From NCBI GenBank assembly GCA_029008095.1, contig JAQXJB010000052.1, positions 209,238 through 273,237 of the forward strand: 64,000 nucleotides of DNA, read 5' to 3'. This stretch comes from Clostridiales bacterium (GTDB taxonomy: Bacteria > Bacillota > Clostridia > Oscillospirales > Oscillospiraceae). The notes beneath the pieces were generated by a model. The model was not told where the DNA came from. It was given only the letters and a program-made list of their open reading frames with translations, and ran no database searches. The position numbers and the translations under genes are program-made. The number at the start of each line of letters is the position of its first letter. Position 1 is the first letter of the stretch. Shown piece after piece: positions 3,800 through 55,332 of this stretch.

Positions 3800-3814
3800 T
3801 GTAAATATATCCTT

Positions 3815-4552
3815 TCACTTAGAGAGCAAGACAACGGTAACGTTGTCCGATGCGTTTCTGCCAAGAGCGATATTCATCATTCTTTCGGCAGCCGTATCAT
3901 TGCTATCCCCGTAAAGCACCTCAAAGAGCATTTCCTGAGAGTTTACTATATTGCTTAATCCATCGCTGCACAGGAGCAGATAATCTCCCTCATCCAGCTC
4001 CACCTCGAAGGTATCGCAATGAACATGCAGTTCCGTACCCACGGCTCGGGTGATAAGGTTTTTACGCGGGTGCTTCCATGCCTGCTCGCGGCTGAGCTCA
4101 CCCTTGTCTATCATATCCTCAACGAGGGAATGGTCCTTGGTTACCTGCTTTATCTCGTTATTTTTTATTATGTAGCACCGGCTATCGCCCACATTGACGA
4201 CCGTGGTTCTGTCTCCGCAGAGCAGCGCCGCGACAAGCGTAGTGCCCATTCCCCGGTAATCCGGGCTGCTCTTGGCAAGTTCCAATATATCCCGGTTGGC
4301 CCGGTCGGCTGCGTCCGCCATGATCACCCGGAAATTTCCGTTTCCGGCCGCGATATCGTTTTTTATGGCCTCTACGAACTTCTCCCGGGCGGTGGCGCTG
4401 GCAAGGTCGCCGGCCTTCGCGCCGCCCATGCCGTCGCAGACAAGGCAGAGCACTGTTTCCTTGCCGTCCAGCGTACCGACAGACCCCGCGAAGAAGGAAT
4501 CCTGATTCATCGTTCTTACCGTTCCTTTGTCGGTCAGACCCCAATATTTCAT
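3815..4552 (-). CDS. PP2C-family Ser/Thr phosphatase (Stp1/PrpC-like)
   Basis: MKYWGLTDKGTVRTMNQDSF, CDGMGGAKAGDLAS, NVGDSRCY, CSDGLSNIV motifs; likely start at internal Met. Confidence 0.93.
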   Translation of the reverse strand: MKYWGLTDKGTVRTMNQDSFFAGSVGTLDGKETVLCLVCDGMGGAKAGDLASATAREKFVEAIKNDIAAGNGNFRVIMADAADRANRDILELAKSSPDYRGMGTTLVAALLCGDRTTVVNVGDSRCYIIKNNEIKQVTKDHSLVEDMIDKGELSREQAWKHPRKNLITRAVGTELHVHCDTFEVELDEGDYLLLCSDGLSNIVNSQEMLFEVLYGDSNDTAAERMMNIALGRNASDNVTVVLLSK

Positions 4553-4615
4553 TTTGATCGGACCTCCAATCTTTGATAATTCGGCTTTTTTCACCTTAAG
4601 GCAACGGGAGTCGCC

Positions 4616-5665
4616 TTATTTGCCGGTTTCCTTTGCGGTTTTTCGCCTGAGCTGACCGCAGGCCGCGTCTATATCCGAACCGAGCCTTCTGCGAACGGTG
4701 GCATTGACGCCCATATCGCAGAGACGGTTCATAAAGGCTTTAGCGTTGCCCGGTTTGAGTGGGCTGCCCTCGATATTATTCAGTGGTATGATATTGACAT
4801 GTCCGCCTATGGGACGCATCAGCTTCGCCAGGAGCTTCGCCTGCTCCTGAGAATCGTTCACGCCGTCTATGAGCGCATATTCAAAGGATATGCGCCTGCC
4901 CGTTTTTTCATAATATGCTCGGCAGGCAGCCATTAGCTCCGCTATGTTATGTTTTTTGTTTATGGGCATCAATTTGTTTCGGGTCTCATCATCGGGTGCA
5001 TGCAGAGAAACCGATAATGTTAATTGTAAATTATAATCGGCCAGTTTGTCAATTCTTTCTGTCAATCCGCATGTAGAAAGTGATATATGCCTCATGCCGA
5101 TATTCATTCCGTCCTTATGATTCACCAGTTGGAGGAAACGCATCACGTTATCAAAGTTCTCCAGAGGCTCTCCGATGCCCATGAGCACGATATTGGAAAT
5201 CTTCTCCCCCGAGTCCAGCTCGGTATAGCGCACCTGGTCGAGTATCTCGGAAGCTTCAAGATTGCGTACAAGTCCGCTTCCGGTGGAGGCGCAGAATATG
5301 CAGCCCTGGCGGCAGCCCACCTGAGAAGAGACGCAGGCTGTATTGCCGTGCTCATACTTCATGAGCACGCTTTCCACAGCGTTGCCGTCCCTAAGCTGCC
5401 AGAGATATTTTATCGTGCCGTCTATGGCTGACTGCTGCTTGCGGATCACCCGTGGAGGGACAATATAAAACTCGTTGTCAAGGCGCTCACGAAGAGACTT
5501 GGATAGGTCGGTCATCTCCTCAAAGCTTGCCACTCCTGCCGTGAGCCATTTGAAGATCTGTCCCGCGCGGAACTTTTTCTCCCCTATGCCGGCAAGATAT
5601 TCGCCTATCTCCTCGGGCAGCATGGACTTTATATCCCGCTTTATTTCTTTTTCCTCATTCTGCAT
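4616..5665 (-). CDS. rlmN: 23S rRNA (adenine2503-C2)-methyltransferase
   Basis: Radical SAM CxxxCxxC (CRQGCIFCAS) and RlmN motifs. Confidence 0.95.
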   Translation of the reverse strand: MQNEEKEIKRDIKSMLPEEIGEYLAGIGEKKFRAGQIFKWLTAGVASFEEMTDLSKSLRERLDNEFYIVPPRVIRKQQSAIDGTIKYLWQLRDGNAVESVLMKYEHGNTACVSSQVGCRQGCIFCASTGSGLVRNLEASEILDQVRYTELDSGEKISNIVLMGIGEPLENFDNVMRFLQLVNHKDGMNIGMRHISLSTCGLTERIDKLADYNLQLTLSVSLHAPDDETRNKLMPINKKHNIAELMAACRAYYEKTGRRISFEYALIDGVNDSQEQAKLLAKLMRPIGGHVNIIPLNNIEGSPLKPGNAKAFMNRLCDMGVNATVRRRLGSDIDAACGQLRRKTAKETGK

Positions 5666-6954
5666 ATATAAAAACCGTCCGTTCCGTATTCAAAGGGCCA
5701 TAGAGTCTTTTCGCCGTTGGGTACATCCCCTATGGGTGCGGGCAGCCCAAAGCCTTCCCGGGTGAAATCGCCGTTTTCCGAAAGGAATTTTTCGGTGACG
5801 TCCTCGTTCTCTTCCCGGACGAGCGTGCAGGTGGAATAGACAAGCCTGCCGCCCGGCTTTACATAGCCGGCAAGATTTTTGAGAATATTATATTGTATTT
5901 CAGGCAATTGCGCAATATCTTCAAAGCTTTTATAGCGTATTTCCGGCTTTTTTCTCACCACACCCATTCCGGAGCAGGGCACATCGGCGATGACAAGGTC
6001 GAAGCGCTCCTTCAGAGTAGGGTTAAATTGCGAGCCGTCCGCGGGAGCGGTGGATATTATATCTATGTGAAGGCGCTCCGCTCCCTCATCAATGCGCTTT
6101 AATTTATTGGGATGCAAATCGCAGGACAGTATGCTTCCCTCGTTCTCCATGAGCATAGCGGCAAGGAAGCTCTTTCCGCCGGGGGCGGAGCAGGCGTCCA
6201 GCACCGTTTCTCCCCTTTTTGGCCCTGCCGCCAGCACGGCCATAGCCGCGGCGGCGTCCTGCACCATAGCAAAGCCGTTCCTGAAGGCCGTCAGCTCCGC
6301 AAGGCTTCCTGTACCGCTGACGGTAACGCAGCCATTCAGCCACGGATGAGCCTTTGCGCTTATGCCATCGGCTTCAAGGCTATTTATCAGTTCCCCGGGA
6401 GTGCAGCGCAGCGGGTTTGCCCGGAGGGTAATATCCGCGTCAGCGTTATCCGCGGCCATGAGCAGCTCTGTCTTTTCCGCTCCGATGAGAGCGGAGAAAT
6501 ATTTATGCCACTGTTCTGTGTGGCTGTACCTCACCCAGGGTTCCTTCGGTTCAGGATACTTGCCCACATTCTCTGCAACGCGGCGCAGCACGGCGTTCAC
6601 AAGGCCGGAAGCGGCCTTATTGGCCAGCTTTTTGGTGAGGGCAACACCCTCGTTCACGGCGGCGCTGTGGGGTATCTTATCCATGAACATGATCTGATAT
6701 GCCGAAACACGAAGTATATCCAGCACATTGGGCTGGAGCTTTCCAAGGCCGCCCTTGACGTAAAGGCCGAGCCGGAAGTCAATGAGTCCCATATTCTGCA
6801 GTACGCCGCAGCTAAGACGGGTGGCAAGCGCCTTATCACGCGCATCCATATTCTCTTTTTTGAAAACGCCGTTGAGATATGCGTCCGACCACGCGCCTGA
6901 GCGTCTGTAAGCTCCCAGAGCGGTCACCGCGGCTTCTCTTGCACTTATGGGCAT
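5641..6954 (-). CDS. rsmB: 16S rRNA (cytosine967-C5)-methyltransferase
   Basis: NusB-like N-term, DACSAPGGKSFLAA and ADVPCSGMGV motifs; start set at MPISAREAAV after GGAGGATTATT. Confidence 0.92.
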   Translation of the reverse strand: MPISAREAAVTALGAYRRSGAWSDAYLNGVFKKENMDARDKALATRLSCGVLQNMGLIDFRLGLYVKGGLGKLQPNVLDILRVSAYQIMFMDKIPHSAAVNEGVALTKKLANKAASGLVNAVLRRVAENVGKYPEPKEPWVRYSHTEQWHKYFSALIGAEKTELLMAADNADADITLRANPLRCTPGELINSLEADGISAKAHPWLNGCVTVSGTGSLAELTAFRNGFAMVQDAAAAMAVLAAGPKRGETVLDACSAPGGKSFLAAMLMENEGSILSCDLHPNKLKRIDEGAERLHIDIISTAPADGSQFNPTLKERFDLVIADVPCSGMGVVRKKPEIRYKSFEDIAQLPEIQYNILKNLAGYVKPGGRLVYSTCTLVREENEDVTEKFLSENGDFTREGFGLPAPIGDVPNGEKTLWPFEYGTDGFYICRMRKKK

Positions 6955-6958
6955 AATA

Positions 6959-7098
6959 ATCCTCCATGCGGCAATACCGCACAAATCGTCATTAAAAATC
7001 TCCCCCGCATGGAGGATTTTTGCCATCATCGCCGGTTGCCCAACGGGCGAGGCGATGGGCCTTTTCATAAGATAGTGTGATTTTTCACACGATCCCTC
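6959..7098 (-). repeat. Dispersed repeat copy 1 (family of 4), upstream of rsmB
   Basis: Shares TCGCCGGTTGCCCAACGGGCGAGGC, TAGTGTGATTTTTCACAC and the terminal CCTCCAT (SD on minus strand) with the copies at 27945, 41329 and 43086. Confidence 0.85.
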
Positions 7099-7107
7099 AT
7101 TTTCTCC

Positions 7108-8028
7108 TCAGTCAGTTATCTTATGTCCTCTGAGATAGTCGGCGGTCTTCATGCGTTTTCCACCGGGAGCCTGAAGCTCTGTTATCACTATGGCTTTCCC
7201 GTCGCCGCAGGCTACAACAAGTCCCTGCTTGTTCTGCCCGACTATCCTGCCGGCGGGCAGGTCGGTCGTATCCTCCGCCATGACGGCGGCAAATATTTTG
7301 AAGGTCTCGCCGCCGAATTCCGCTGTGGCGGCGGGCTTGGGAGCCAGTCCGCATATGTGGTTTATTACCCGGCGGGCAGGCTTCGTCCAATCTATGGGAC
7401 AATCCTCTCTGTGGAGAGGCGGAGCGAAGCTGGCCAGAGCGGAGTTCTGGGGAGTGCGGACAGCGGTCCCGTTCTCGATGGCGCGGAGGGTATTTACAAG
7501 CAGCTCGGCGCCCATGACCTTGAGCCGGTCATACAGTTCGCCGTATGTCTCATATTCACCAACGGGGGTGGAAACCATGTCTATCATATCGCCCGCGTCC
7601 ATTTCCGGAGCAAGGTACATGGATGTCACTCCGCCAAGCTCCTCGCCGTTGAGGACTGTCCACTGAATAGGAGCAGAACCTCTGTACTTGGGCAGAAGAG
7701 AACCATGGATATTGATAAAGCCCAGCGGCATGCACTCAAGCATATCCTCCGGAATGAGCTTGCCGTAGGCCACGACCACGGCGATGTCCGCGCCGAGGGA
7801 CTTCATTTCCTCCAGCACCTCGGGCTGGTTTCTCAGTCTGGCAGGCTGGAACACGGGCAGACCATTTTTCAGCGCGTACTCCTTCACGGGACTTGCGGTA
7901 AGCTTCATGCCGCGCTTTGCGGGCTTGTCCGGCTGAGTGTAGACGCCGCAAATATCGAAGCCCGCTTCATATATGGCTTTCAGGGACTCCAGAGCAAAAT
8001 CCGGAGTACCCATAAACAACACTTTCAT
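7108..8028 (-). CDS. fmt: Methionyl-tRNA formyltransferase
   Basis: MKVLFMGTPDFA, INIHGSLLPKYRGSAPIQW motifs. Confidence 0.95.
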   Translation of the reverse strand: MKVLFMGTPDFALESLKAIYEAGFDICGVYTQPDKPAKRGMKLTASPVKEYALKNGLPVFQPARLRNQPEVLEEMKSLGADIAVVVAYGKLIPEDMLECMPLGFINIHGSLLPKYRGSAPIQWTVLNGEELGGVTSMYLAPEMDAGDMIDMVSTPVGEYETYGELYDRLKVMGAELLVNTLRAIENGTAVRTPQNSALASFAPPLHREDCPIDWTKPARRVINHICGLAPKPAATAEFGGETFKIFAAVMAEDTTDLPAGRIVGQNKQGLVVACGDGKAIVITELQAPGGKRMKTADYLRGHKITD

Positions 8029-33803: not shown

Positions 33804-33877
33804 GCGGGTATAGTTCATCGGTAGAACGCGAGCTTCCCAAGCTCGACAGGAGGGTTCGACTCCCTTTACCCGCTCCA
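33804..33877 (+). tRNA. tRNA-Gly(CCC)
   Basis: Acceptor GCGGGTA/TACCCGC, anticodon stem CGAGC-TTCCCAA-GCTCG, T-loop TTCGACT, encoded CCA. Confidence 0.95.
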
Positions 33878-43375: not shown

Positions 43376-44347
43376 CTATATTCCGTTTACGATGTTTCGT
43401 GGTCTCTCCCCTGCTTCTATCCACCTAACGTTTTCCCAGATAACGTCATAGTATCTGCGGAAGCTGCCGCTGGTAATACCGCCTATGTGCGGCGATAGCA
43501 CCAGCCTGTAACGAAGCTCGCCGCCAAGCTGAAGCAACGGATTATCAGCGGTGACGGGCTCGGGAGATAGGGTATCGAAACCGGCTCCGCCCAGCCGTCC
43601 GTCCGCAATGGCACGGGCTACCGCCGCCTGATCCACCAGCTCGCCGCGCGCCGTGTTGATAAGCAGGGCGCCGGGGCGCATTTTCGCCAGTGTCTCATCG
43701 TTTATCATGCCCTCGGTCTCGGGCAGGGCGGGAAGATGGAGCGATATGATATCACAGGAGGCGTAAAGCTCATCCAGAGGAAGATACTGCGCACCGCAGT
43801 CCTGAACCTGAAATTTATCATAATAGCTGACGCGCGCGCCGAAGGCAAGAAGGCGCTTGCAGAGCTCGCGTCCGATAGCGCCCATGCCGACGATGCCGAC
43901 GCGGCATTCTCCCAGCTCCGTGAGGCCGTTTTTGAAGCATCGGGTCTTGGCCTCCATCTGCCGCGCCGCGAACACCATCTCGTCAAATTCCTTGAGGTTT
44001 CGCAAAAGCGCCAGCATGAGCAGCAGCGCCTGTTCGGCCACGGCTGCGGCATTGGCTCCGGCGGAGTTCGCCACAAATACGCCTCGCCCGGCGGCTGTCT
44101 CAAGGTCGATGAGATTATAGCCCACGCCCTGAGACTGTACCAGCTTCAAGTTGTCCATCCTGCGCAGCAGCGCGCCGGATATGGCGGTCATAGGATCGGT
44201 CACTATCACGTCCGCGCCGGAGGCGGCAACAGCGTCCTCATCGCAGACGCCGTTGCCAAAGTGGAGAAGCTCCCATTCCTTCGGCAGCGAAGCGGTATCG
44301 GCATAACGGTCAAAATTGGCTCTGTCGAGTAAAATCGCTATTTTCAT
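43376..44347 (-). CDS. D-2-hydroxyacid dehydrogenase
   Basis: VGIVGMGAIGRELCKRL, INTARGELVDQ, SPHIGGITSGS. Confidence 0.9.
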   Translation of the reverse strand: MKIAILLDRANFDRYADTASLPKEWELLHFGNGVCDEDAVAASGADVIVTDPMTAISGALLRRMDNLKLVQSQGVGYNLIDLETAAGRGVFVANSAGANAAAVAEQALLLMLALLRNLKEFDEMVFAARQMEAKTRCFKNGLTELGECRVGIVGMGAIGRELCKRLLAFGARVSYYDKFQVQDCGAQYLPLDELYASCDIISLHLPALPETEGMINDETLAKMRPGALLINTARGELVDQAAVARAIADGRLGGAGFDTLSPEPVTADNPLLQLGGELRYRLVLSPHIGGITSGSFRRYYDVIWENVRWIEAGERPRNIVNGI

Positions 44348-44386
44348 GTTTGCTTTTCCTTTCGCATGGGGGGCTCTCGGACTGTG

Positions 44387-45853
44387 TTACCACTGTCTGT
44401 AATCCGCTATGCCTTCGGTCTTAGCCTTTTTCGCCAAATCGGTGTAAAGGCCGTATTCATGCGCCTCGCAGCACTCGGTATACGAGGGGTCAACCTTGGG
44501 ATTTCTCGGCAGCGGAACATTCTGCTCAATGAGAATATCCTGCACCCGGCGTATGTCAACATCACGGACACTTACGCCCTGCTGCGCCGCTACCGCTGCG
44601 GCCACGCCTGCCGCCTGACCGGTTCCGACGCACTGCGGGATAAGCGTTACCCAGTCTATGGCTACGTCATCCGCGGATATGTGGCGGCCGGGGCACAGAA
44701 GATTTTCCACGCCCTTGGGCAGTATGGCACGGTACGGAATTTCAACAGGGCCGCAGTCGTTGATGCGGCAGATGGTGGAGTGCCAGGCTATAACATCGTC
44801 AAAGCGGTTGGCAAATGCGAAGTCGGAGGGCGTCATGATATACTCGCCCTGCAGACGGTAGCTGCATCTGGAGCCGAGCTGGGGCGCAATGTCGTACAGA
44901 TAGGCGTTGCGGAAGGCGATGGGGCAAACCTCACGCAGATATTCCACTACCTCGCGCATGGTGCTGCGGGTGCGAAGCTCTGTCTCGGTTATGTCCTTGA
45001 TCTTGGAGCAGTCCATACCGCTCTGCCAGTTATTGATCCAGCAGACAGAATTATCGCTGGAGGGGAGCGGAGCGCAGCGGAAGCCGGTTATCTTGCTCAG
45101 GCCTGCGTACATCGGGCCGACGACTTCAGGATTCGTTTTCTGCCACTGCACAAAAGCATCCCAGTTTATTCCGCCGATACGCCAAACCAGCGCCGTGCAG
45201 TTGGAACGGGTGTTGCTGTCAGAGAGGGCGCGGAATGGAGTGCCGGTCTGGCGGAAAATATCGCCGTCGCCGGTGGCGTCTATGACGGACTTTGCGAGGA
45301 CGGCCTGACGGCCCTCCTTGCTTTCAAAAATGACGCCCTTTACGGCATTGCCTTCCATGATGGGCTTGGTGCCAAGGCAGTGGTAGAGTATATGTATGCG
45401 GTCGCGCTCCTCAAGCAGCATTTTGTCCATTTCGATCTTGAGCTGGTTGGGCTCAAAATATACCGCGCGCACGAGGCGATGGGGCTCGCTTTCGCTTACG
45501 CTGCCGTGAACAGACCGCCACCGGTTTATGCGCGCAGGATCGGTGCAGCCGATATCCTCCGGCTCAGGCCCAAGAACGGCATTGGGGATATTCTTCATTC
45601 GTTCGAACCATTCCTCCTGGATGCCGCGTACGAACATTTTGTCATACCAGGACAGCTTGGGAACCATAATAACATAACCGCCGGTCACGTCGCCGCCCAT
45701 ATAGCCGTAGCGTTCCATGATGATGACCTTTTTCGCGCCTGCGCGAGCGGCGGCGAGAGCCGCGCTGTGCCCGGCGCTTCCACCGCCGACCACAAGAACG
45801 TCACATTCATCGATAACAGGAATGTTGTTGGATTCAGTAATAAAATTACTCAT
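44387..45853 (-). CDS. FAD-dependent oxidoreductase (FAD_oxidored, PF12831-like)
   Basis: DVLVVGGGSAGHSAALAAARAGAKKVIIMERYGYMGGDVTGG; DATGDGD; EIPYRAILPKGVENLLCPGRHIS. Confidence 0.85.
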   Translation of the reverse strand: MSNFITESNNIPVIDECDVLVVGGGSAGHSAALAAARAGAKKVIIMERYGYMGGDVTGGYVIMVPKLSWYDKMFVRGIQEEWFERMKNIPNAVLGPEPEDIGCTDPARINRWRSVHGSVSESEPHRLVRAVYFEPNQLKIEMDKMLLEERDRIHILYHCLGTKPIMEGNAVKGVIFESKEGRQAVLAKSVIDATGDGDIFRQTGTPFRALSDSNTRSNCTALVWRIGGINWDAFVQWQKTNPEVVGPMYAGLSKITGFRCAPLPSSDNSVCWINNWQSGMDCSKIKDITETELRTRSTMREVVEYLREVCPIAFRNAYLYDIAPQLGSRCSYRLQGEYIMTPSDFAFANRFDDVIAWHSTICRINDCGPVEIPYRAILPKGVENLLCPGRHISADDVAIDWVTLIPQCVGTGQAAGVAAAVAAQQGVSVRDVDIRRVQDILIEQNVPLPRNPKVDPSYTECCEAHEYGLYTDLAKKAKTEGIADYRQW

Positions 45854-46027
45854 ATTTGCACCTCACATTATCATTTTTATTCTACACATTGGAATTGTAA
45901 AATCGTCAGAAAATTAAAGTTTTATTTCATTGATGAAATATATTTTTAAAAAATATTTGAACACATGATAAAAACATGCTATCATATATACAAATACAGG
46001 GGGGTGGTTGATATCTTTTACTTTACC

Positions 46028-46921
46028 ATGCAGCAGCTTGAGACGTTCTTTTCCATCGTGGAATGCAGCTCTTTGTCAAACGCGGCAAAGGAGCGCTTTG
46101 TGTCTCAGCCGTCCCTGAGCAAAACCCTCAGCCGCTTTGAGGAAAGCATAGGCATAACGCTTTTTAACCGCGGATCCGGCGCCCTTGTGCTGACAAAGGA
46201 GGGGGAATTCCTCTATTCCCGGCTGAAGTCGGGATACAAAATTATGGTACAGGCGATAGAGGAAGCGAAGGAACTGGAAAACGATAAGCGCAAAACCCTC
46301 AGGATCGGTATACATCCCTCCTGCGAGCGTTCTGTTGAATTCAGCTCCATATGGGGCGTTATCGATTCCTACGAGCGTGCTCACCCGGAGGTTGCTATGG
46401 TCGAGGAATTTCTTGAGTATCAGGAGCTTTACAGCGCCTTCCGCAGCGGAGAGCTTGACGCGATCATCTCATACGGCTTTGAGCTTGACGATATGGCTGA
46501 CATAGAGACACGAAGCCTGCAGAAGCTCAATTTTTATATTGCGATGTCAGCCGAGGATCCGCTTGCAAAAAATGAGAAGCTTGATTTAAAGGAATTGACT
46601 GATAAACCGTTTTTCTTCGTTGCTCCCGACAAAACGAAGGTGGACAGGGAAAGATGCGTACAGCGGCTGAGGAATATACATATTGAGTCAAATAACATTA
46701 TAATCATGCCGAATTCCCGCTCCGCCGCGCGGTCGGTAGTGCGCGGAAAGGGATATCTTTTCACCTGCCACCGCCACGGTTATTCTCAGGACGAGATGAA
46801 GCTTTTCCCGGCGCAGGGGCAGAACGGCACGTCGTATCTTGTTTGCGCCTGGCATAAGAACGACAGCCGCCGCGAACTGAAAGAATTTATAAACAGCTTC
46901 CCTGAATGCGGTGAAGGCTGA
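46028..46921 (+). CDS. LysR-family transcriptional regulator
   Basis: MQQLETFFSIVECSSLSNAAKERFVSQPSLSKTLSRFEESIGITLF; an upstream GTG at 46004 is an alternative start. Confidence 0.92.
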   Translation: MQQLETFFSIVECSSLSNAAKERFVSQPSLSKTLSRFEESIGITLFNRGSGALVLTKEGEFLYSRLKSGYKIMVQAIEEAKELENDKRKTLRIGIHPSCERSVEFSSIWGVIDSYERAHPEVAMVEEFLEYQELYSAFRSGELDAIISYGFELDDMADIETRSLQKLNFYIAMSAEDPLAKNEKLDLKELTDKPFFFVAPDKTKVDRERCVQRLRNIHIESNNIIIMPNSRSAARSVVRGKGYLFTCHRHGYSQDEMKLFPAQGQNGTSYLVCAWHKNDSRRELKEFINSFPECGEG

Positions 46922-46936
46922 AAACCAATATCGGTG

Positions 46937-46974
46937 TAATTCTGCGCAATACCATATGGTATTGCGCAGAATTA
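46937..46974. terminator. Perfect 38-bp palindrome between convergent genes
   Basis: TAATTCTGCGCAATACCATATGGTATTGCGCAGAATTA. Confidence 0.75.
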
Positions 46975-46992
46975 TCTTTTGCTTTAAGGAAC

Positions 46993-48744
46993 TCAGCTTG
47001 CCAGATATCTTTCGTAGCTTGCCTGATAGATATCAAGGATATCCTGCATACCCATTTTGTATGCGCCTGCTACATAAGAATCCCACTCGCTCATGGGTCT
47101 GGAGCCGTCGACAAAGCTGGTCCAGGTCTCTCCTATGTAGGTAACGAGGTCATTGCTCAGTGAATTCAGCTGTTCGTTCTCCTCATCGGTAAACTTGCAG
47201 CTTGCAGGCCAGTCATAGGCAACAGCGCCGGTGGGCTCCGTCCACAGAGTCAGCATGTCTACAAGCCGGTCGCCGCCCTCAACAGCATAGCTGCGAAGGT
47301 TGTGCATCATACCGTGCTCGGCAAGGCCGTTGAGCGCGAAGTTTGCCATCATCCAGGATACGCCAACATGATAGGAGTCATTGGTGACAAATTCGGTCAG
47401 GCGGATATCACCGTTTTCATTGTAATCCCAAGTGAGGCCCTGAGGTCCGTAGCTGGCCTTGAAGGCTCCGGTCTCACTGTAAAACCAGTCGCACCAGCTG
47501 ACAGCGAGCTTAATGTTTTCGCATTTTGCGGAAACAGCAGTGCCGCCATAGCTGAACTTCGTGATCTTGGTGCCTATCTTGAGAGCTTCGCCTGCAACCT
47601 TGCGTGGGCGAACAAGAGCGTCCCAGCGGCAATCGGGATCCGAGTTCTTTGCCTCGCTGGAGGCAATGCCGGAGGGCTGGAAGAAGCAGTACGCGGACTC
47701 ATTGGAGCCAAGACGATCCTCAATGGCGGTACTGTCGGCTACGCTGCCCCAGTTGGGATTTATGAGGCCGTCTGCATACCAGGAGGAAAGAAGATTCATT
47801 GCATAGCGGTCATCCTCTTCGGTGAGGGTGAACTGTACGGTGCCGTCCACTACTCTTGCATTGGGCAGAGAAGTACCGTTGCAGTAAAGATATGTATCAA
47901 GGCCGGAGGACCAGATACCGGTATCCATTTCAACGGTTTTGGTGATATCCATAGGATACTTGCTGATTCCCGCGTTTTTGATGGCTACCAGGGCATCATG
48001 AACCTGATCATAGGTCAGAAGCTCCTCGCCTTTTATTCCCAACTTGTCCAGGAAGTCGCCTCTTATGCAGTAGCCCATTTTAGGCGTGGGATCATGAACC
48101 ATACCGTAGAAGCAGGCGATAGTCTCGGGGTCGAAGAATATCTTGTTGTAAACATCCTTGTCATAATCGTATTGCACGACCTGATGGGTGTAATTAGGCA
48201 TGTAGTCGAGATAATCATGAAGATTTACGAAATATCCGTCCTCTACGGAATTCTTTGGCGTTCCGGGATAGAAGCTCATGGCGCAGCCCATCATATCGAA
48301 AAGCGAGTCCGAGGCGAGAAGCGTGGCGAACTGTTCGCGTCTGGAGGTCGCGGGTGCAATGACCCATTCCACATGTACGCCGGTCTCTTCCTGAAGCATC
48401 TGCGGGAAGGGCATTGAGGTAAAGCCGTCTTCGCTGATGACCTGAGGCGTCCAGTTCGTGGTCCAGTAGGTCAGCACTTCATCCGTGGTGCAGAAGGGAA
48501 CGTCGTACTCATAAAAATCCAGAGCGCAGCCAAGGCTGTCTTTTTCAAATTTCCCTGCCGCATACTTGTACCCGGGCTCATCCTCTATCTGAGGAGGCGC
48601 GGAGTCTGCCGGCGGAGTGCTTTCAGTGCCTTTGTCCGTGGAAACCGGAGGAGTCGGCGACGCCGCGTCAGGAGACTTTGCACATCCTGCAAATATCCCT
48701 AACACCATCAGCAATGCCAAAAGAAGTGATAAGCTTTTTTTCAT
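46993..48744 (-). CDS. Extracellular solute-binding lipoprotein (carbohydrate ABC-type)
   Basis: Lipobox LGIFAGCAKSP; ~580 aa binding-protein-like; no permease/ATPase nearby. Confidence 0.8.
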   Translation of the reverse strand: MKKSLSLLLALLMVLGIFAGCAKSPDAASPTPPVSTDKGTESTPPADSAPPQIEDEPGYKYAAGKFEKDSLGCALDFYEYDVPFCTTDEVLTYWTTNWTPQVISEDGFTSMPFPQMLQEETGVHVEWVIAPATSRREQFATLLASDSLFDMMGCAMSFYPGTPKNSVEDGYFVNLHDYLDYMPNYTHQVVQYDYDKDVYNKIFFDPETIACFYGMVHDPTPKMGYCIRGDFLDKLGIKGEELLTYDQVHDALVAIKNAGISKYPMDITKTVEMDTGIWSSGLDTYLYCNGTSLPNARVVDGTVQFTLTEEDDRYAMNLLSSWYADGLINPNWGSVADSTAIEDRLGSNESAYCFFQPSGIASSEAKNSDPDCRWDALVRPRKVAGEALKIGTKITKFSYGGTAVSAKCENIKLAVSWCDWFYSETGAFKASYGPQGLTWDYNENGDIRLTEFVTNDSYHVGVSWMMANFALNGLAEHGMMHNLRSYAVEGGDRLVDMLTLWTEPTGAVAYDWPASCKFTDEENEQLNSLSNDLVTYIGETWTSFVDGSRPMSEWDSYVAGAYKMGMQDILDIYQASYERYLAS

Positions 48745-49083
48745 GACGTTTCTCCTTTCATAATACAACTTTCTGCGCGCAAGTCAAACGCTTTCCATCA
48801 GGCAAAAGGCGGAAAGCATACCGCCCTTGTCTGATGTTTACATTTTTATTTTATTCCATGCAGAATTATTGTTCAAATACACGAATAGTCCACCCCCATA
48901 AACGCACGTTTATAGCAGGCCGCCACGCATGCACAAATCAGGCAGGAAAAAGAGAAATGCAAGGCATTCTTTTCCAATATGTAAAACAATGTCTGAAGTT
49001 TGATTTGCATTCTCAGATAATGTCATATATCATCATGTCATATATATTATATGGTTACCAATATAAGCCAAGGGGGAACTAAC

Positions 49084-50160
49084 ATGATCGATCTGAATAA
49101 AATACCGCCTTCCCGACAGCGGGAGGGAACATTCCCATACATGGTGCAGCAGCCTCCCCGCCCGCTTTATCCGGAGGAAAGACCCGTTACGGCGAGAGAA
49201 AACTATCTTATGGTACTGCGCGGAGAGCTTCCCTATTGGATGCCGGTATGGCTTACTGACACGCAGTACTGCTGGCCAGACGTAATGCAGGAGCATTCCC
49301 TTTGGGAATCGGATGGTCTTGATTGGTGGGGACAGCAATGGGTATGGGAGCCCACGAGCCACGGTCTTATGCCTAAGCCCGGCAGCAAGGTCATCACCGA
49401 TATGGCGCACTGGCGTGAGCAGGTTCGTATTCCCGATTTCGCCGAGGTGGACTGGGAAAGCGACGCCGCCCTGCAAACCGCTCGCTATGACCCGGACCGC
49501 TGCCACCTTTTCCACTGTGCCACGGGCGTTTTTGAGCGCCTGCATGAACTGATGGGCATGAGCGACGCGATGTTAGCCATGTACGAGGAGCCGGAGGCGG
49601 TACACGAATTCAATGAAATGATGGTGGACTACAAAAAGCGTCTGCTCGGCAACATATTCAAATATTATGACCCCATCGATTACATCATCTACGGTGATGA
49701 CTGGGGAACTCAGCGGTCAGGCTTTTTCTCCAACGAAATGTACCGCGAATTTTTGATGCCGTATACCAAGCGCATCTGGGATTACGTTCACAGCTGCGGC
49801 AAATACGTTGAGCTCCATTCCTGCGGTCTTACACAGCAGTACATAGAGGAAATGATCGAAATGGGTCTTGACGCATGGACGCCTCAGCCTATCAACGATC
49901 TGGATAAGCTCACTGCAAAATACGGCGACAAGCTGTCGCTCACCGTGAATGTTCCCGGACTTGCGGGCGCGTCAAACGAGGCGGAGGTGCGCAGCTGTAT
50001 ACGTTCCTTTGTGGACGATTACGCACCACGCGGACACAGGGTAGTCGCCAACGGACTGACGGCTCTGAGAGACCCCAAGCTGCTCCGCACGGCATACGAG
50101 GAGCTCTACTACGCCTCGTCCGAATATTACGCGAAAGTGCGCGCGGGAAAAGAAAAGTAA
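49084..50160 (+). CDS. Uroporphyrinogen decarboxylase/MtaA-like methyltransferase-family protein
   Basis: YVELHSCGLTQQYIEEMIEMGLDAWTPQPINDL with HxCG Zn-type motif. Confidence 0.82.
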   Translation: MIDLNKIPPSRQREGTFPYMVQQPPRPLYPEERPVTARENYLMVLRGELPYWMPVWLTDTQYCWPDVMQEHSLWESDGLDWWGQQWVWEPTSHGLMPKPGSKVITDMAHWREQVRIPDFAEVDWESDAALQTARYDPDRCHLFHCATGVFERLHELMGMSDAMLAMYEEPEAVHEFNEMMVDYKKRLLGNIFKYYDPIDYIIYGDDWGTQRSGFFSNEMYREFLMPYTKRIWDYVHSCGKYVELHSCGLTQQYIEEMIEMGLDAWTPQPINDLDKLTAKYGDKLSLTVNVPGLAGASNEAEVRSCIRSFVDDYAPRGHRVVANGLTALRDPKLLRTAYEELYYASSEYYAKVRAGKEK

Positions 50161-50185
50161 CACTGGTAAAGGAGGCGCAAGCATA

Positions 50186-51151
50186 ATGGAAATACGGGAT
50201 ATCGAGTCTGTCTGCGCGGTGGATATTTACCGCAACTATTCAAACGCGGCGTACAATACGGCAACCTCGACGGCGGTCATATCCAAGCACGTGGCAAAGG
50301 CTGAAAAGGAATTGGGTATCCGTATATTCGAGCGCGCTTCCAAGACCCGTCCGGTGGAGCTTACGGAGGCGGGCGCGCAAATCATCGACTATATGCACGC
50401 CATCGTAAGGATGTACCGCTGCGCAGTAAAAACAGCGGAGAGCGTGCGTGTAAAGCAGAACGACGTTCTCACGGTTGGTTATATGCCGAGGGTAGGCAAC
50501 TTCCGGGAAAACGAGATACTTGCCCGTTTTGCCTTCGAGAACCCCAATATCATGCTCTACCGGAAAACTGACTGCACCGAAGGGCTTGTTAATATGCTGC
50601 TCAGCGGTGTGGCGGATATGGTGCTGGTACCGTTTCTGGAATCGCCTGATGAAAGCTCGCTGCTGCACAATCAGATTGCCAGCGATGATATCGAGATATT
50701 TGAGGTGCTGCACAATGACGTGCTCACGGTAGGCGTGCCTGACGGACATCCGCTTGCAAACGCAGAAATGATAACGAAGGATATGTACAAGCTGCTTCAC
50801 GGTGACACCTTTCTTCTTTCCAACGACCAGAAAACTCTGAAGCATGAGGCTTCGGACGGATATCTATACGAGCTTTTCGGCTTTACAGGGAATATGAAAA
50901 TACGCTATATCGATGTAACTGAGCCGACCATCAGTCTGGAGCTGGTGAAGCGCGGAGCGGGTGTGCTCGTACAGTCCGGCATAACGCAGCGCCATATGGG
51001 CGGCATCAATTTCATCCCGGTGGAGGGATGGGATAAGAGGGCAACGCTTTATTGCATATACCGAAAAAGTGCCGTTTCTCCCGGATTGAAGAAGCTGGCG
51101 GACTGCGTTAAACGATTTTCTGAGGAATACAATAAGCGAAAGGACGGTTAA
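50186..51151 (+). CDS. LysR-family transcriptional regulator (divergent HTH)
   Basis: NYSNAAYNTATSTAVISKHVAKAEKELGIRIFERASKTRPVELTEAG. Confidence 0.85.
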   Translation: MEIRDIESVCAVDIYRNYSNAAYNTATSTAVISKHVAKAEKELGIRIFERASKTRPVELTEAGAQIIDYMHAIVRMYRCAVKTAESVRVKQNDVLTVGYMPRVGNFRENEILARFAFENPNIMLYRKTDCTEGLVNMLLSGVADMVLVPFLESPDESSLLHNQIASDDIEIFEVLHNDVLTVGVPDGHPLANAEMITKDMYKLLHGDTFLLSNDQKTLKHEASDGYLYELFGFTGNMKIRYIDVTEPTISLELVKRGAGVLVQSGITQRHMGGINFIPVEGWDKRATLYCIYRKSAVSPGLKKLADCVKRFSEEYNKRKDG

Positions 51152-51155
51152 TACA

Positions 51156-52697
51156 ATGCGAACAACGAGAAAAGAATTTTTTTGTGACCTGGCCATCATC
51201 GGCGGCGGCGTTGGCGGCTGCGCGGCAGCCATCGCGGCCGCTCGCCGCGGACTTCGGGTAATACTTTTTGAAAAGGGCGTATCCCTCGGCGGCCTTGCCA
51301 CAAACGGTTATGTTCCGCAGGTAGCCGGTAATATAGAGGGTGTCTGCCTTGAATTTGTAAAAAAACTGGACGAGATCGGACAGCTCAAGCAGTCAGGAAG
51401 CGGCGAATATTACCGCAATCCGTCCTTTGAGCCGGAATACGGCAAATTTGTTCTGGAAAACATGGTCACGGGAGCCGGAGCGCGCGTGATCTATGACGCG
51501 GTCTGCGTTGACGCGGACGTGGAGGACGCGCAGATCAAGCGCTGCTATTTCCATACCAAGCAAGGCAGAGTAAGCGTTGCCGCAAAGCTTTTCATAGACG
51601 CTACCGGAGACGCCGATCTCGCAGAGATGGCGGGCGTGCCGTACCAGACAGGCGGCGTGGATTTCGCCGGCCTGAATATGTCCACAACGCTTGGCTCCCG
51701 CTGGGCAGGCGTGAATCTGGTCAAGTATCAGGCGGCGGAAAACCGTTTCCGCCAGGAGCAGCTTGACAAGGGCGTGAAGCTGCCGCTTTCGTTGATATAC
51801 GTTCTGGAGGATAAGTGGATCGAAGAGGGCAAGCTTATCCGCCATATCGCCAACCGCTATACCGGCTTTTTCCGCGTTCTCATTCCCAACACGCCTATGG
51901 ATAACGCGGAGTTCGTGACCTTCGCCTTTCATAGCTTCTTCTGCCAGAACAATGACTGCGAAAATATCAGCCGTCAGGTGCTGGAGCAGCATCAGCTCAT
52001 GCAGAATTTCCACACCTTCCTGCGTGAGTGCGTACCCGGCTTTGAAAACGTGCGCATCGTCGGCACCGGCTCTCTGCCCGGCGTGCGGGACAGCCGCAGA
52101 ATATTCGGCGAATACATGCTCAAGGCGGCGGATGTCTGCTGCGGCGTTAAGTTTGAAGACGGCATCGCGCGCTTCCCCGAGGTGCTTGACTGCCACCATC
52201 CCACCAGTGCCAGAATGACCTTCCAGAGACATTACCATATGCGCAAGCCGGAGGGCAGCGCCGTAACCATTCAGGCGGGCTGTCCCGCCGAAATGCACCC
52301 CTTCGGCGAGCCGGAGGGCATGGAGGTGCGTCCCAATCCCAGGGATTACTGCGAGATACCGTACAGAAGCCTGATACCGGAGAAGATCGACAATCTGCTG
52401 GCTGTGGGCCGCTGCTGTTCGGCGGAGTTCCATGCCAACGGAGCCATGCGCATTATCGCCCCCGCAATGGGAACCGGCCACGCGGCCGCTGTTGCGGCGG
52501 ATATGGCCATTCGCCGCGGCGTGCGCCCCCGTGACCTGGACGGCCGTGAGGTGCGCAAGGCTCTTATTGAGGAGGAGGGCGTTCCGCTGGATAAGCCCTG
52601 CGACGGTCACTGGGCTAAGCTCCGTGAGGCGGAGGGCAAGATCATTGTAACGCCGGTGGGCGATTTCGCCGCTATTGAAAACTTCCGCATGTTCTGA
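51156..52697 (+). CDS. FAD-dependent oxidoreductase (FAD_oxidored, PF12831-like)
   Basis: CDLAIIGGGVGGCAAAIAAARRGLRVILFEKGVSLGGLATNG; DATGDADLAEMAGVPYQTGG; EIPYRSLIPEKIDNLLAVGRCCSA. Confidence 0.86.
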   Translation: MRTTRKEFFCDLAIIGGGVGGCAAAIAAARRGLRVILFEKGVSLGGLATNGYVPQVAGNIEGVCLEFVKKLDEIGQLKQSGSGEYYRNPSFEPEYGKFVLENMVTGAGARVIYDAVCVDADVEDAQIKRCYFHTKQGRVSVAAKLFIDATGDADLAEMAGVPYQTGGVDFAGLNMSTTLGSRWAGVNLVKYQAAENRFRQEQLDKGVKLPLSLIYVLEDKWIEEGKLIRHIANRYTGFFRVLIPNTPMDNAEFVTFAFHSFFCQNNDCENISRQVLEQHQLMQNFHTFLRECVPGFENVRIVGTGSLPGVRDSRRIFGEYMLKAADVCCGVKFEDGIARFPEVLDCHHPTSARMTFQRHYHMRKPEGSAVTIQAGCPAEMHPFGEPEGMEVRPNPRDYCEIPYRSLIPEKIDNLLAVGRCCSAEFHANGAMRIIAPAMGTGHAAAVAADMAIRRGVRPRDLDGREVRKALIEEEGVPLDKPCDGHWAKLREAEGKIIVTPVGDFAAIENFRMF

Positions 52698-52708
52698 TAC
52701 TATGTAAA

Positions 52709-52736
52709 GAGTGGGCGTGCTTTCGCGCGCCCACTC
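52709..52736. promoter_or_regulatory. Intercistronic hairpin between two flavoprotein genes
   Basis: GAGTGGGCGTGC-TTTC-GCGCGCCCACTC; no U-tract. Confidence 0.7.
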
Positions 52737-52818
52737 AGATTATCAGAGAATATAAGCAATTTTATATTGCACTAAATATATATAATTTCAACCATATTTG
52801 CCAAAGGAGCTGATAGGC

Positions 52819-54354
52819 GTGAAACGTGAATACGGTGCGTGGGCACGTCCGCCCGAGCCGGTGGCCGAGGCGGATATTTGCAGAACTATAAAAACGGATG
52901 TACTCGTTATCGGAGCGGGCATTGCGGGCGTAAGCTGCGCCCTGCGCGCTGCCGAGAGCGGCGCGCGTGTGACGGTTTTGGAAAAAAGCGCGTCATGGTC
53001 GGCGCGCGGAGGAAATATCGGCGTACCCAACTCATCCTTTATGAAGGCGCAGGGCTACGAAAACGACATCGACGTTCTTACCCGCGAATGGATAAAGCGC
53101 TGCGGCAACCGCTGCGATGAGCGAATCGTGCGCAGATACATGCGGGAAGCACCAAGAGCAATGGACTGGCTTATCGATATCGTGACGCGGCCTGAATATA
53201 ACGCCCGGCCTGTACTGCAGGGCAGCCGATACAAGGGAGAAACATACTGGGAGGTATACGGCTCCCACCGCTTTTTCGACGGCCCGATGGCCAGGAAGGG
53301 ACTGCGCGCCGGAGCGCCGGACGCGGTAAACGCCATGTACGGCGAAGCACTCAAACTGGGCGTCGAATTTCTCTTTAACACCCCTGCCAGACAGCTCGTC
53401 AGGGAAAACGGCAGAGTGGTCGCCGCAATAGCCGAGGCCGGAGACGGGCTCATCCGCGTGGAGGCCGGGAGTGGCGTGGTGCTGGCCACGGGTGACATCG
53501 GCGGCAACGAGGAAATGTGCGCCGACCTTTGCCCGATGGCGAACGCCTGCGAGAAAAAGCTCTATTGGCCCAAGAACGGAAACACCGGCGATGGACACAG
53601 AATGGGTCTTTGGGTCGGTGGTACTCTTGAGGACGGCCCCTTCCCCACCATTCTCCATCCTCAGGCCTTTCATTACAGGACCTATTGCTTCCTCTTTGTC
53701 AAGCCGGACGGCAAGCGCTTTATGAACGAGGACAATTATGTCCAGGGCAAGACCGTCGCGGTACTCCGTGAACGGGAAAACTTTGTATGGTCCGTTATGG
53801 ACGGGAACTGGAAGGAGCAGGTCGCTGATTCTATACAATACGGCGGCGGCCTATTCTGGGGCGACGACTGCATAGCCGGCGAGAGCGAATTCGTAGCGGA
53901 AAACGAGGAAAAAATGCTTCAATTCGGTTTGGAGCGCGGACTTGTTGTAAGCGCGGACACGCCGGAGCAGCTCGCGCGGAAGATGGGCGTTCCTGAGGAT
54001 GTTTTCACGGCGACGCTGGCGCGTTATAACGAACTCGCCGCCAAAGGTCATGATGAGGACTTTGGAAAAAGGGCGGAGCTTCTGCATCCCCTCGATACCC
54101 CGCCGTATTACGCGATGAAATTCGGCCCCGCGCTGCTTGCCGTTGTTGGCGGACTTCGGGTTGACGAGGAAATGCATGTACTGGACGCCGAAAGCCGCGC
54201 CGTTGCCGGACTGTACGCAATCGGAAACGCCGCCGGAGGACGTTACGGCGTGGACTACCCCGTGCTGATACCCGGAAACAGCCACGGTACGGCGCTCACC
54301 TTCGGCTTTCTCCTTGGAGAGACGCTCGGAAAACAGACGCAGCATATACATTAA
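52819..54354 (+). CDS. FAD-binding (fumarate reductase/succinate dehydrogenase-like) flavoprotein
   Basis: TDVLVIGAGIAGVSCALRAAESGARVTVLEKS; GLYAIGNAAGGRYGVDYPVLIPGNSHGTALTFGFLLGE; GTG start with AAAGGAG upstream. Confidence 0.85.
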   Translation: MKREYGAWARPPEPVAEADICRTIKTDVLVIGAGIAGVSCALRAAESGARVTVLEKSASWSARGGNIGVPNSSFMKAQGYENDIDVLTREWIKRCGNRCDERIVRRYMREAPRAMDWLIDIVTRPEYNARPVLQGSRYKGETYWEVYGSHRFFDGPMARKGLRAGAPDAVNAMYGEALKLGVEFLFNTPARQLVRENGRVVAAIAEAGDGLIRVEAGSGVVLATGDIGGNEEMCADLCPMANACEKKLYWPKNGNTGDGHRMGLWVGGTLEDGPFPTILHPQAFHYRTYCFLFVKPDGKRFMNEDNYVQGKTVAVLRERENFVWSVMDGNWKEQVADSIQYGGGLFWGDDCIAGESEFVAENEEKMLQFGLERGLVVSADTPEQLARKMGVPEDVFTATLARYNELAAKGHDEDFGKRAELLHPLDTPPYYAMKFGPALLAVVGGLRVDEEMHVLDAESRAVAGLYAIGNAAGGRYGVDYPVLIPGNSHGTALTFGFLLGETLGKQTQHIH

Positions 54355-54372
54355 AATATAAGGAGATAAATT

Positions 54373-55332
54373 ATGAATACTCAGACCTTTTACCTCAACG
54401 AGGAAAAAACAGCGAAGCTCATAGTTACTGTGTCCAATGTAGTCCCATATTTCCAGCTTACCCCGGCGCTTATCCATGTGCCAGGCGGCGGCTTCATGTT
54501 CTGCAGCGAGTCAGACACTGTTGCCATCGCCGCGCGCTGCACCGGCAAGGGCTTCGGCGTCACCTGCACCTATCTCTACCCGGTGGCGCAGGAATACCGC
54601 TTCCCCCAGGTCGTGATATGGCTGATGAAGGGCATTAAGCTTCTGCGCGAGCATGCGGCCGAGTGGGGTATCGACCCCAATAAGATCGTCATTTCCGGCC
54701 ATTCCGCGGGAGCGTTTATCTGCATGAGCACCGGAAACCTCTGGAACCGTCCTGATTTCATGGACAAGGCCGGCTGCACCGGCGAGGAGGGCAAGCCCAA
54801 CGCCATGCTGCTGGGCTTCGGTCCGATGTTCTGCGGCCAGCAGACGGACGACGGCATTGTTTATGTGAAGAACGGTGATCTGGTCGGCCCACAGACGCCG
54901 CCCGCATTTTTCCACCACGCGAGGGGCGACGAACTGGTGTCGGTCTATCAGACCATCGCTATGCTGGATGCTATGGAGCGGGCGAAGCGTCCCTTTGCCG
55001 CGTATATCTCCTGCGCTGGCGGACACGGCGCCACCTCGTATACAAGCCATATGCTTGACGCGGACGGAAAGGTAGCGCCCGATATGGACGACTGGTTTGA
55101 GCAGGCGTGGCACTTCCTTGCCAACCAGCTTGATCTGCCCCAGATACCCGGCCCGATCCCGAACCCATTTGCCGCTCCGGAGGGTGGCGAGCCTATGATG
55201 CCGCCCATGCCGATGATAACGGCGGACGGCGACCCGGTCAAGCCCGAGGAAATGCCGCTGGGTCAGGCCACGGAGCTGCATATGCCCTTCAACGCCGGTT
55301 TCCATGATAAGGACTTCACCGTTTTTGAATAA
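54373..55332 (+). CDS. Alpha/beta hydrolase (esterase/lipase-like)
   Basis: IHVPGGGFMF oxyanion-type motif and ISGHSAGAFICMS nucleophile elbow. Confidence 0.85.
   Translation: MNTQTFYLNEEKTAKLIVTVSNVVPYFQLTPALIHVPGGGFMFCSESDTVAIAARCTGKGFGVTCTYLYPVAQEYRFPQVVIWLMKGIKLLREHAAEWGIDPNKIVISGHSAGAFICMSTGNLWNRPDFMDKAGCTGEEGKPNAMLLGFGPMFCGQQTDDGIVYVKNGDLVGPQTPPAFFHHARGDELVSVYQTIAMLDAMERAKRPFAAYISCAGGHGATSYTSHMLDADGKVAPDMDDWFEQAWHFLANQLDLPQIPGPIPNPFAAPEGGEPMMPPMPMITADGDPVKPEEMPLGQATELHMPFNAGFHDKDFTVFE

Follow-up and report, generated by a model that had tools for sequence, protein, structure and literature searches.

A flavoenzyme gene cluster of a Clostridiales bacterium combines a conserved enzyme core with an AlgQ-type binding protein lacking an adjacent permease

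What kind of compound could be processed by a cluster of flavoenzymes, and how would it enter the cell if the adjoining solute-binding lipoprotein has no permease beside it? This question is raised by a block of nine genes in a 64,000-nucleotide stretch (hereafter, the window) of the genome of a Clostridiales bacterium of the family Oscillospiraceae (GenBank assembly GCA_029008095.1, contig JAQXJB010000052.1, positions 209,238–273,237). The block encodes two flavin adenine dinucleotide (FAD)-dependent oxidoreductases of the PF12831 family (FAD1 and FAD2), a fumarate-reductase-like flavoprotein, a D-2-hydroxyacid dehydrogenase, a UroD-superfamily protein, an alpha/beta hydrolase, two LysR regulators (LysR1 and LysR2), and an AlgQ/LplA-type lipoprotein. 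A sequence-only reading of this DNA had named these nine genes and proposed an island for the import, hydrolysis, and reduction or demethylation of a specific compound, noting that these families recur in the anaerobic conversion of small aromatic or plant-derived molecules. All nine genes were confirmed as intact open reading frames, each with the expected family match. We give about even chances to the interpretation that the block is a two-layer catabolic cassette, in which a conserved enzyme core is combined with a binding protein that feeds a common distant permease.

The genome under study, G000, is a draft assembly of 2.27 Mb in 55 contigs with 95.8% completeness. It was read as stretches around search matches, with genes called by a simple coding score and several gene families assigned by eye. 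The objects for comparison were the genome G222, which represents the same family and a different genus, and the genome G261 from a different family of the same order (a 72% complete assembly).

A binding protein without an adjacent permease

The window binding protein alone had no Pfam match. A profile of four paralogues matched AlgQ1 and AlgQ2, the AlgQ2 match extending over profile positions 132–579, and a lipobox (LGIFAGC) following a Lys-containing hydrophobic leader was read in the sequence. The whole-genome profile search revealed 11 full-length AlgQ/LplA-type paralogues in G000, plus one contig-end fragment. The surroundings of all 11 genes (the window gene and 10 others) were read, and an AlgM-type LplB/LplC permease was found beside none of them. 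The binding protein at C38:77294 has a nearby ATP-binding cassette (ABC) importer of another type, which comes with a separate binding protein, and an amino-acid-type importer is located a few kilobases from the one at C19:98391.

The only AlgM1/AlgM2-type permease operon found in G000, C52:93868–96361, encodes one LplB and two LplC subunits, so that the ratio of binding proteins to AlgM-type permeases is 11:1. LplB matched AlgM1 with an E-value of 8.6e-74 and LplC1 matched AlgM2 with 7.5e-47, LplC2 being 84% identical to LplC1. The operon is on the same contig as the window lipoprotein gene, outside the window and about 160 kb away. In a protein search of the genome with this LplB, the self-match scored 665 bits and the next match 51 bits. 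No binding protein was found near the operon (L066 5845–8641), the neighbors of which are DivIVA-like, nitroreductase-like, MurJ-like, and DNA-polymerase-I-like genes. Of the 26 permease hits listed by a PF00528 search, the gene-by-gene reading covered those outside C19:151548, C55:57340, and three peptide-type pairs. Apart from the C52 operon, the permeases with surroundings read were assigned by eye to the peptide, phosphate, polyamine, amino-acid, methionine, or sulfonate types, or to a sugar type on contig C39 that is accompanied by a binding protein and an ATPase, and have binding proteins of other types alongside.

The lipoprotein of the window would catch its substrate outside the cell and pass it to the C52 permease, which might be powered by a MalK/MsmX-type ATPase encoded elsewhere, for example, on contig C39. 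The ten other lipoprotein paralogues, mostly located in other catabolic loci, would operate on the same permease. The proposal of a regulated cluster for the import and redox conversion of a specific compound is supported: homologues of LysR2, FAD2, and the flavoprotein are again found side by side in another family, and FAD2 homologues adjoin transporters elsewhere. Import is not readable from the locus alone because its binding protein has no permease there and the best candidate is about 160 kb away.

Among 295 genomes of the order, the binding-protein family was found at an E-value of 1e-120 only in G000 and G222, and the orphan arrangement is repeated in the latter, a member of the sister genus. 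G222 contains 9 complete copies and several contig-end fragments, together about 11. Its LplB/LplC pair is orthologous to that of G000 (75% and 74% identity), has the same MurJ-like and polymerase neighbors, and is likewise without a binding protein. One further, distant AlgM-type permease of G222, on contig C16, has its own binding protein. In G261, a binding protein adjoins the permease genes at three of the four LplB loci read, with none visible on the fourth contig as far as it extends. Accordingly, the orphan arrangement is no general property of this permease family. Tandem duplicates of the orphan binding protein are present in both genera (L052 7178–11089 on G000 contig C15 and L075 5511–9411 on G222 contig C10). 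Other copies in G222 lie at contig ends, and their true number may differ.

Instead of sharing a permease, the orphan binding proteins might act at the cell surface as sensors or scavengers for their individual cassettes. Orphan binding proteins of the tripartite tricarboxylate transporter (TTT) type in Rhodoplanes are located near histidine kinases and regulators (PMC5994714), and some of the paralogues found here adjoin LysR or other regulators. However, this explanation, which we consider unlikely, does not account for the retention of an AlgM-type permease operon without its own binding protein in both G000 and the sister genus, and no sensor kinase is present beside the window gene.

Conservation of the enzyme core

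The genes at 49084–55332, from UroD to the hydrolase, had been proposed as a set to be sought in other genomes. This co-occurrence was confirmed in part: the full set was absent at every FAD2-relative locus found, but its LysR2-FAD2-flavoprotein part is conserved. When 393 other genomes of the order were searched at an E-value of 1e-90, only G261 had FAD2, in two copies. A scan of GTDB species with FAD2 gave, among the matches listed, four close relatives with 71%–77% identity, one of which (L003) is the same place as one of the G261 copies. The 8-kb G261 contig L095 encodes, in this order, an Old Yellow Enzyme-like reductase (448–2442), a DASS-like transporter (2544–4028), and homologues of FAD2 (4091–5611), the flavoprotein (5825–7363), and LysR2 (7392 to the contig end). 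The identities to the window proteins are 61% for FAD2, 60% over 505 residues for the flavoprotein, and 38% for LysR2 (E 7e-43). UroD and the esterase-type hydrolase are absent from this contig, and the binding protein does not belong to the core there. At the L003 locus, a LysR2-like gene (34%, E 2e-12) is directly upstream of FAD2. Since the three genes recur jointly on L095 and a LysR2-like gene precedes FAD2 in L003, LysR2-FAD2-flavoprotein is the conserved core, and UroD, the hydrolase, and the binding protein lie outside it there.

The transport genes next to FAD2 differ between the loci. The neighboring transporters of L095 and L002 (Candidatus Alloscillospira) share 32% identity and belong weakly to the DASS/CitMHS anion-transporter group, FAD2 of L005 directly follows a ribose-type ABC importer, and the nearest transport gene in the window is that of the AlgQ-type lipoprotein. 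Thus, the transporter is swapped while the FAD2 core stays, a pattern taken from four loci with no statistic attached. At another Oscillospiraceae locus (L004 484–8628), a cupin-like protein, a flavoprotein, a PF12831 protein, a formyl-CoA-transferase-like protein, and two 2-hydroxyacyl-CoA-dehydratase/benzoyl-CoA-reductase-like subunits are encoded 1.4 kb from a FAD2 orthologue.

The assignment of FAD1 and FAD2 to PF12831 is based on whole-length matches, with scores of 306 and 247 bits for the pair against a curated cut-off of 27. Of the three full-length PF12831 proteins in the genome, the window encodes two, within 9 kb, which is more than chance would give. The structure model of FAD2 was poor (predicted local distance difference test [pLDDT] score of 64), and its fold matches were not usable. 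A search of the open-access literature on PF12831 turned up nothing informative.

Neighborhoods of the paralogous binding proteins

The closest compositional parallel to the window is a run of genes on contig C40 (L031), comprising a binding protein, a LysR regulator, the large and small parts of aconitase X, a PF12831 protein, an Fe-S protein, and a UroD protein. The paralogous binding protein there is flanked by a LysR1-like regulator (29%). A parallel cassette on contig C22 (L029, C22:32000–47125) comprises an orphan binding protein, two glycyl radical enzymes, a UroD protein, and a flavoprotein within 11 kb. Two Old-Yellow-type reductases were found at C19:632, with a corrinoid protein, a tetrahydrofolate (THF) methyltransferase, and a UroD protein 10 kb further. 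Glycyl radical enzymes are encoded within 10 kb of the binding protein at C38:38921 and at two loci on C19. Other binding-protein loci contain two enolase-superfamily enzymes (C4), a zinc alcohol dehydrogenase (C38:77294), or a tandem array of binding proteins (C15). In G222, one binding protein lies beside arabinofuranosidase and arabinose genes (families assigned by eye).

A flavoenzyme was present within 10 kb at 5 of the 10 paralogue loci, compared with 7.3% of the genome (binomial P 4e-4, a clear enrichment), and a glycyl radical enzyme at 4 of the 10, compared with 6.6% (P 0.003, a moderate enrichment); these values are exploratory, coming from several tests with a hand-made flavoenzyme list, with contig ends ignored and with the window that prompted the tests included. 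In total, the 2.27-Mb genome encodes 11 glycyl-radical-type enzymes of PF02901, and four orphan binding-protein loci have such an enzyme within 10 kb.

Several observations weigh against the proposed two-layer cassette. The proximity of UroD genes to binding proteins is not significant alone (P 0.14). The hints at the substrate disagree, as AlgQ relatives bind oligosaccharides and the core elsewhere is accompanied by anion-type transporters. A second AlgM-type permease could be missing since the assembly consists of 55 contigs and is 95.8% complete. Outside G000, the core cluster was encountered in a single genome, where it lies on an 8-kb contig in an assembly of 72% completeness, and no counterpart of the window cassette was present in the parts of G222 that were read. 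Finally, the tree of the binding proteins of both genomes does not pair the look-alike cassettes of the two genera. It contains a few well-supported pairs and no clean one-to-one match between cassette type and clade; for example, the loci C19:632 and G222 C3:30771 are alike in content, but their binding proteins are not sisters. One-to-one co-evolution of binding proteins and cassettes is therefore not claimed.

Proposed pathway and relation to known systems

In the two-layer cassette, the imported compound could be deacylated or demethylated by the hydrolase or the UroD protein. In the cytoplasm and under LysR control, the core enzymes FAD2 and the flavoprotein would most likely oxidize or reduce a small organic compound. 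The FAD1/2-hydroxyacid-dehydrogenase arm may process a 2-oxo or 2-hydroxy acid product, and the two LysR proteins would sense the compound or a product. UroD, the hydrolase, and the FAD1/dehydrogenase pair are accessory genes of this genome that probably trim acyl or methyl groups or handle the 2-oxo/2-hydroxy acid. Nothing in the sequence points to an aromatic compound.

The families of all parts are known, and one membrane complex with several binding proteins is already known or proposed elsewhere. According to the account of Chen et al. (2010) cited in PMC12838199, the core ABC permease of the Pseudomonas choline/betaine/carnitine importer Cbc recruits several binding proteins of distinct specificity, as would be the case here. 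A shared membrane component has also been proposed for the orphan TTT binding proteins of Bordetella and Rhodoplanes (PMC5994714). These resemble the G000 lipoproteins in far outnumbering the membrane parts, but they are Gram-negative periplasmic proteins rather than lipoproteins, occur in far larger numbers, and belong to tripartite tricarboxylate rather than ABC systems. In the alginate importer AlgQ1/AlgQ2-AlgM1-AlgM2-AlgS (PDB 4tqu, 4xig, and 1j1n), another of the closest known systems, the binding protein, both permease subunits, and the candidate ATPase each have a matching counterpart of solved structure. The Alg components, however, serve one polymer, whereas one permease is present here for 11 scattered binding proteins, many of them in different catabolic settings. 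The Cbc importer, in turn, reportedly has few binding proteins, which recognize closely related quaternary amines, and belongs to an ABC subfamily different from AlgQ/AlgM. The literature searched contained no case of an 11:1 ratio for AlgQ/AlgM-class systems whose binding proteins are located in catabolic loci; this is no proof that the layout is unpublished.

Taken further, these arrangements suggest hub-and-spoke uptake in this Clostridia lineage, in which one AlgM-type permease would be fed by about 11 AlgQ-type lipoproteins, the majority accompanied by a catabolic cassette (containing glycyl radical enzymes, flavoenzymes, UroD, or enolase-family enzymes); we regard this as plausible, with chances slightly short of even. 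The boldest extension would be a parallel methyl-group hub, in which many UroD methyltransferases share one corrinoid protein. If uptake is organized in this way, a new substrate could be gained by acquiring a cassette together with a binding protein, its own permease being unnecessary. The substrate range of gut-type anaerobes could then be predicted from the binding proteins and adjoining cassettes, and about eleven pathways would depend on a single permease. Such systems will be overlooked wherever annotation requires every binding-protein gene to have an adjoining permease gene. Moreover, the LysR2-FAD2-flavoprotein core represents a defined three-gene target for finding the role of PF12831 enzymes.

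A fumarate or urocanate reductase role of the flavoprotein is improbable

The flavoprotein matched flavocytochrome c (E 4e-27) and urocanate reductase (E 2e-26), and could thus belong to a classical fumarate/urocanate-type reductase pathway and serve anaerobic respiration. It shares the FAD-binding domain and the overall match with the superfamily of flavocytochrome c, urocanate reductase, and 3-ketosteroid dehydrogenase, and retains the active-site His and the proton-donor Arg of the GKRFMNED motif, the latter being invariant in four homologues. In flavocytochrome c3, His504 and Arg544 form the second carboxylate clamp, which holds the second carboxylate of fumarate. The flavoprotein has Leu and a Tyr-Pro stretch (YGVDYP) aligned with these two positions, and the aligned homologues, including the G261 copy, also lack both clamp residues. 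Since both are missing, a role as fumarate or urocanate reductase is unlikely. In addition, no signal peptide was seen, no FMN (flavin mononucleotide)-binding domain was matched, and no NCBIfam cut-off was reached. Participation in a respiratory pathway of this kind therefore appears highly improbable. Another flavoprotein of G000, 53% identical to that of the window, is encoded on contig C39 (L065 5597–7225) beside the full gene set of a sugar-type ABC importer, which includes a MalK/MsmX-type ATPase.

UroD and the possibility of demethylation

The UroD protein retains the DDWG motif and, in HxCG, the HxC of the zinc site, but the third zinc Cys is not conserved. Its structure model (pLDDT 87) has the UroD fold, the nearest solved folds being UroD itself and a methyltransferase of Methanosarcina mazei, while a search against PDB sequences returned no match. 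The match to MtaA/CmuA reached 34 bits, far under the cut-off of 235. No orthologues were found at an E-value of 1e-60 in 244 other genomes of the order, and none in viral contigs. G000 has 19 UroD-family hits, plus one on contig C19 found by BLAST. The window protein groups, on an open branch (90/88), with DDWG+HxCG paralogues, one of which, the C19 copy at L035 14108–15217, has a corrinoid protein and a THF methyltransferase of the PRK07535 type as neighbors. Six UroD-superfamily members of the genome carry an HHxD-type motif instead of HxCG.

These relationships are consistent with a corrinoid-dependent O-demethylation locus, in which UroD would act as methyltransferase I on the imported compound and pass the methyl group in trans to the C19 corrinoid protein, and the flavoproteins would then convert the demethylated product. 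UroD-superfamily O-demethylases, OdmB and VdmB, are known (PMC10418091), two RACo-type activases are encoded in the genome, and the window protein resembles the methyltransferases MtaA, OdmB/VdmB, and Mlp in its fold and in the HxC part of the zinc site. Unlike them, it does not conserve the third Cys of the MtaA-type site and has no corrinoid partner in its locus, which also contains no THF methyltransferase and no activase. Only one clear corrinoid (B12-binding) protein, on C19, was found in G000, against the 19 UroD-family hits, so that demethylation would need to run in trans, and the conserved core is devoid of UroD. We consider an O-demethylation locus doubtful, if somewhat less so than a sensor role of the binding proteins. 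The demethylation suggested by the sequence-only reading is possible for UroD, in trans; a different UroD-type reaction is equally likely.

Organization of the gene block

The features of the block are listed in Table 1.

TABLE 1 Genes and intergenic features of the block (positions in the window)
Feature	Position	Strand	Evidence or remark
D-2-hydroxyacid dehydrogenase (PF02826/PF00389)	43376–44347	-	PF02826 E 1.6e-49; second gene of FAD1 operon
FAD1, PF12831 FAD-dependent oxidoreductase	44387–45853	-	E 8.3e-73
Divergent intergenic region FAD1/LysR1	45854–46027		Promoter-like sites, by consensus only
LysR1 regulator, divergent from FAD1	About 46028–46921	+	E 1.9e-16
AlgQ/LplA-type solute-binding lipoprotein	46993–48744	-	AlgQ2 E 5.6e-26 via paralogue profile
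339-bp divergent promoter region common to binding-protein gene and UroD operon	48745–49083		Back-to-back starts
UroD-superfamily protein	49084–50160	+	E 1.3e-15; DDWG and HxCG motifs
LysR2 regulator	50186–51151	+	HTH_1 E 7.4e-10
FAD2, PF12831 FAD-dependent oxidoreductase, cassette core enzyme	51156–52697	+	E 7.4e-91
G+C-rich hairpin without T-run, between FAD2 and flavoprotein	52709–52738	+	Read by eye
FAD_binding_2 fumarate-reductase-like flavoprotein	52819–54354	+	PF00890 E 2.1e-58
Alpha/beta hydrolase, BD-FAE/arylesterase kind	54373–55332	+	PF20434 E 2.3e-13

The genes might also be a chance mosaic of three unrelated neighboring units, namely, the dehydrogenase-FAD1 pair, the binding protein, and the run from UroD to the hydrolase. 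These units are divergent or convergent, the binding-protein gene converging on LysR1 with a strong hairpin (46936–46975) between them; another hairpin lies between FAD2 and the flavoprotein, and the full set is not conserved. However, LysR2, FAD2, and the flavoprotein occur together again in another family, the binding protein and UroD have a common divergent promoter region, and the C40 locus contains the same kinds of parts (a paralogous binding protein, LysR, PF12831, and UroD). An accidental juxtaposition therefore seems about as unlikely as the sensor explanation.

The block can be called an "island" only as a gene cluster. Neither integrase or transposase genes nor tRNA genes were seen within it or next to it, the nearest tRNA gene being at 33804, and its base composition is ordinary; an explanation by a mobile element was rejected on the absence of integrase and transposase genes and on this composition.

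The D-2-hydroxyacid dehydrogenase contains the catalytic Arg, Glu, and His motifs (ARGELVD, LSPEPV, and SPHIGG, read in the sequence). In the hydrolase, the GHSAG nucleophile motif together with GDE and GGHG corresponds to a Ser-Asp-His triad with GxSxG, and these motifs and the family matches predict an activity of the BD-FAE/arylesterase type. The flavoprotein probably starts at GTG 52819 and not at TTG 52798, because an AAAGGAG ribosome site precedes the former and the homologues start there too. The plus-strand run UroD-LysR2-FAD2-flavoprotein-hydrolase has gaps of 25, 4, about 121, and 18 bases, and, given the hairpin just 3' of FAD2, the flavoprotein and the hydrolase may form a separate transcript.

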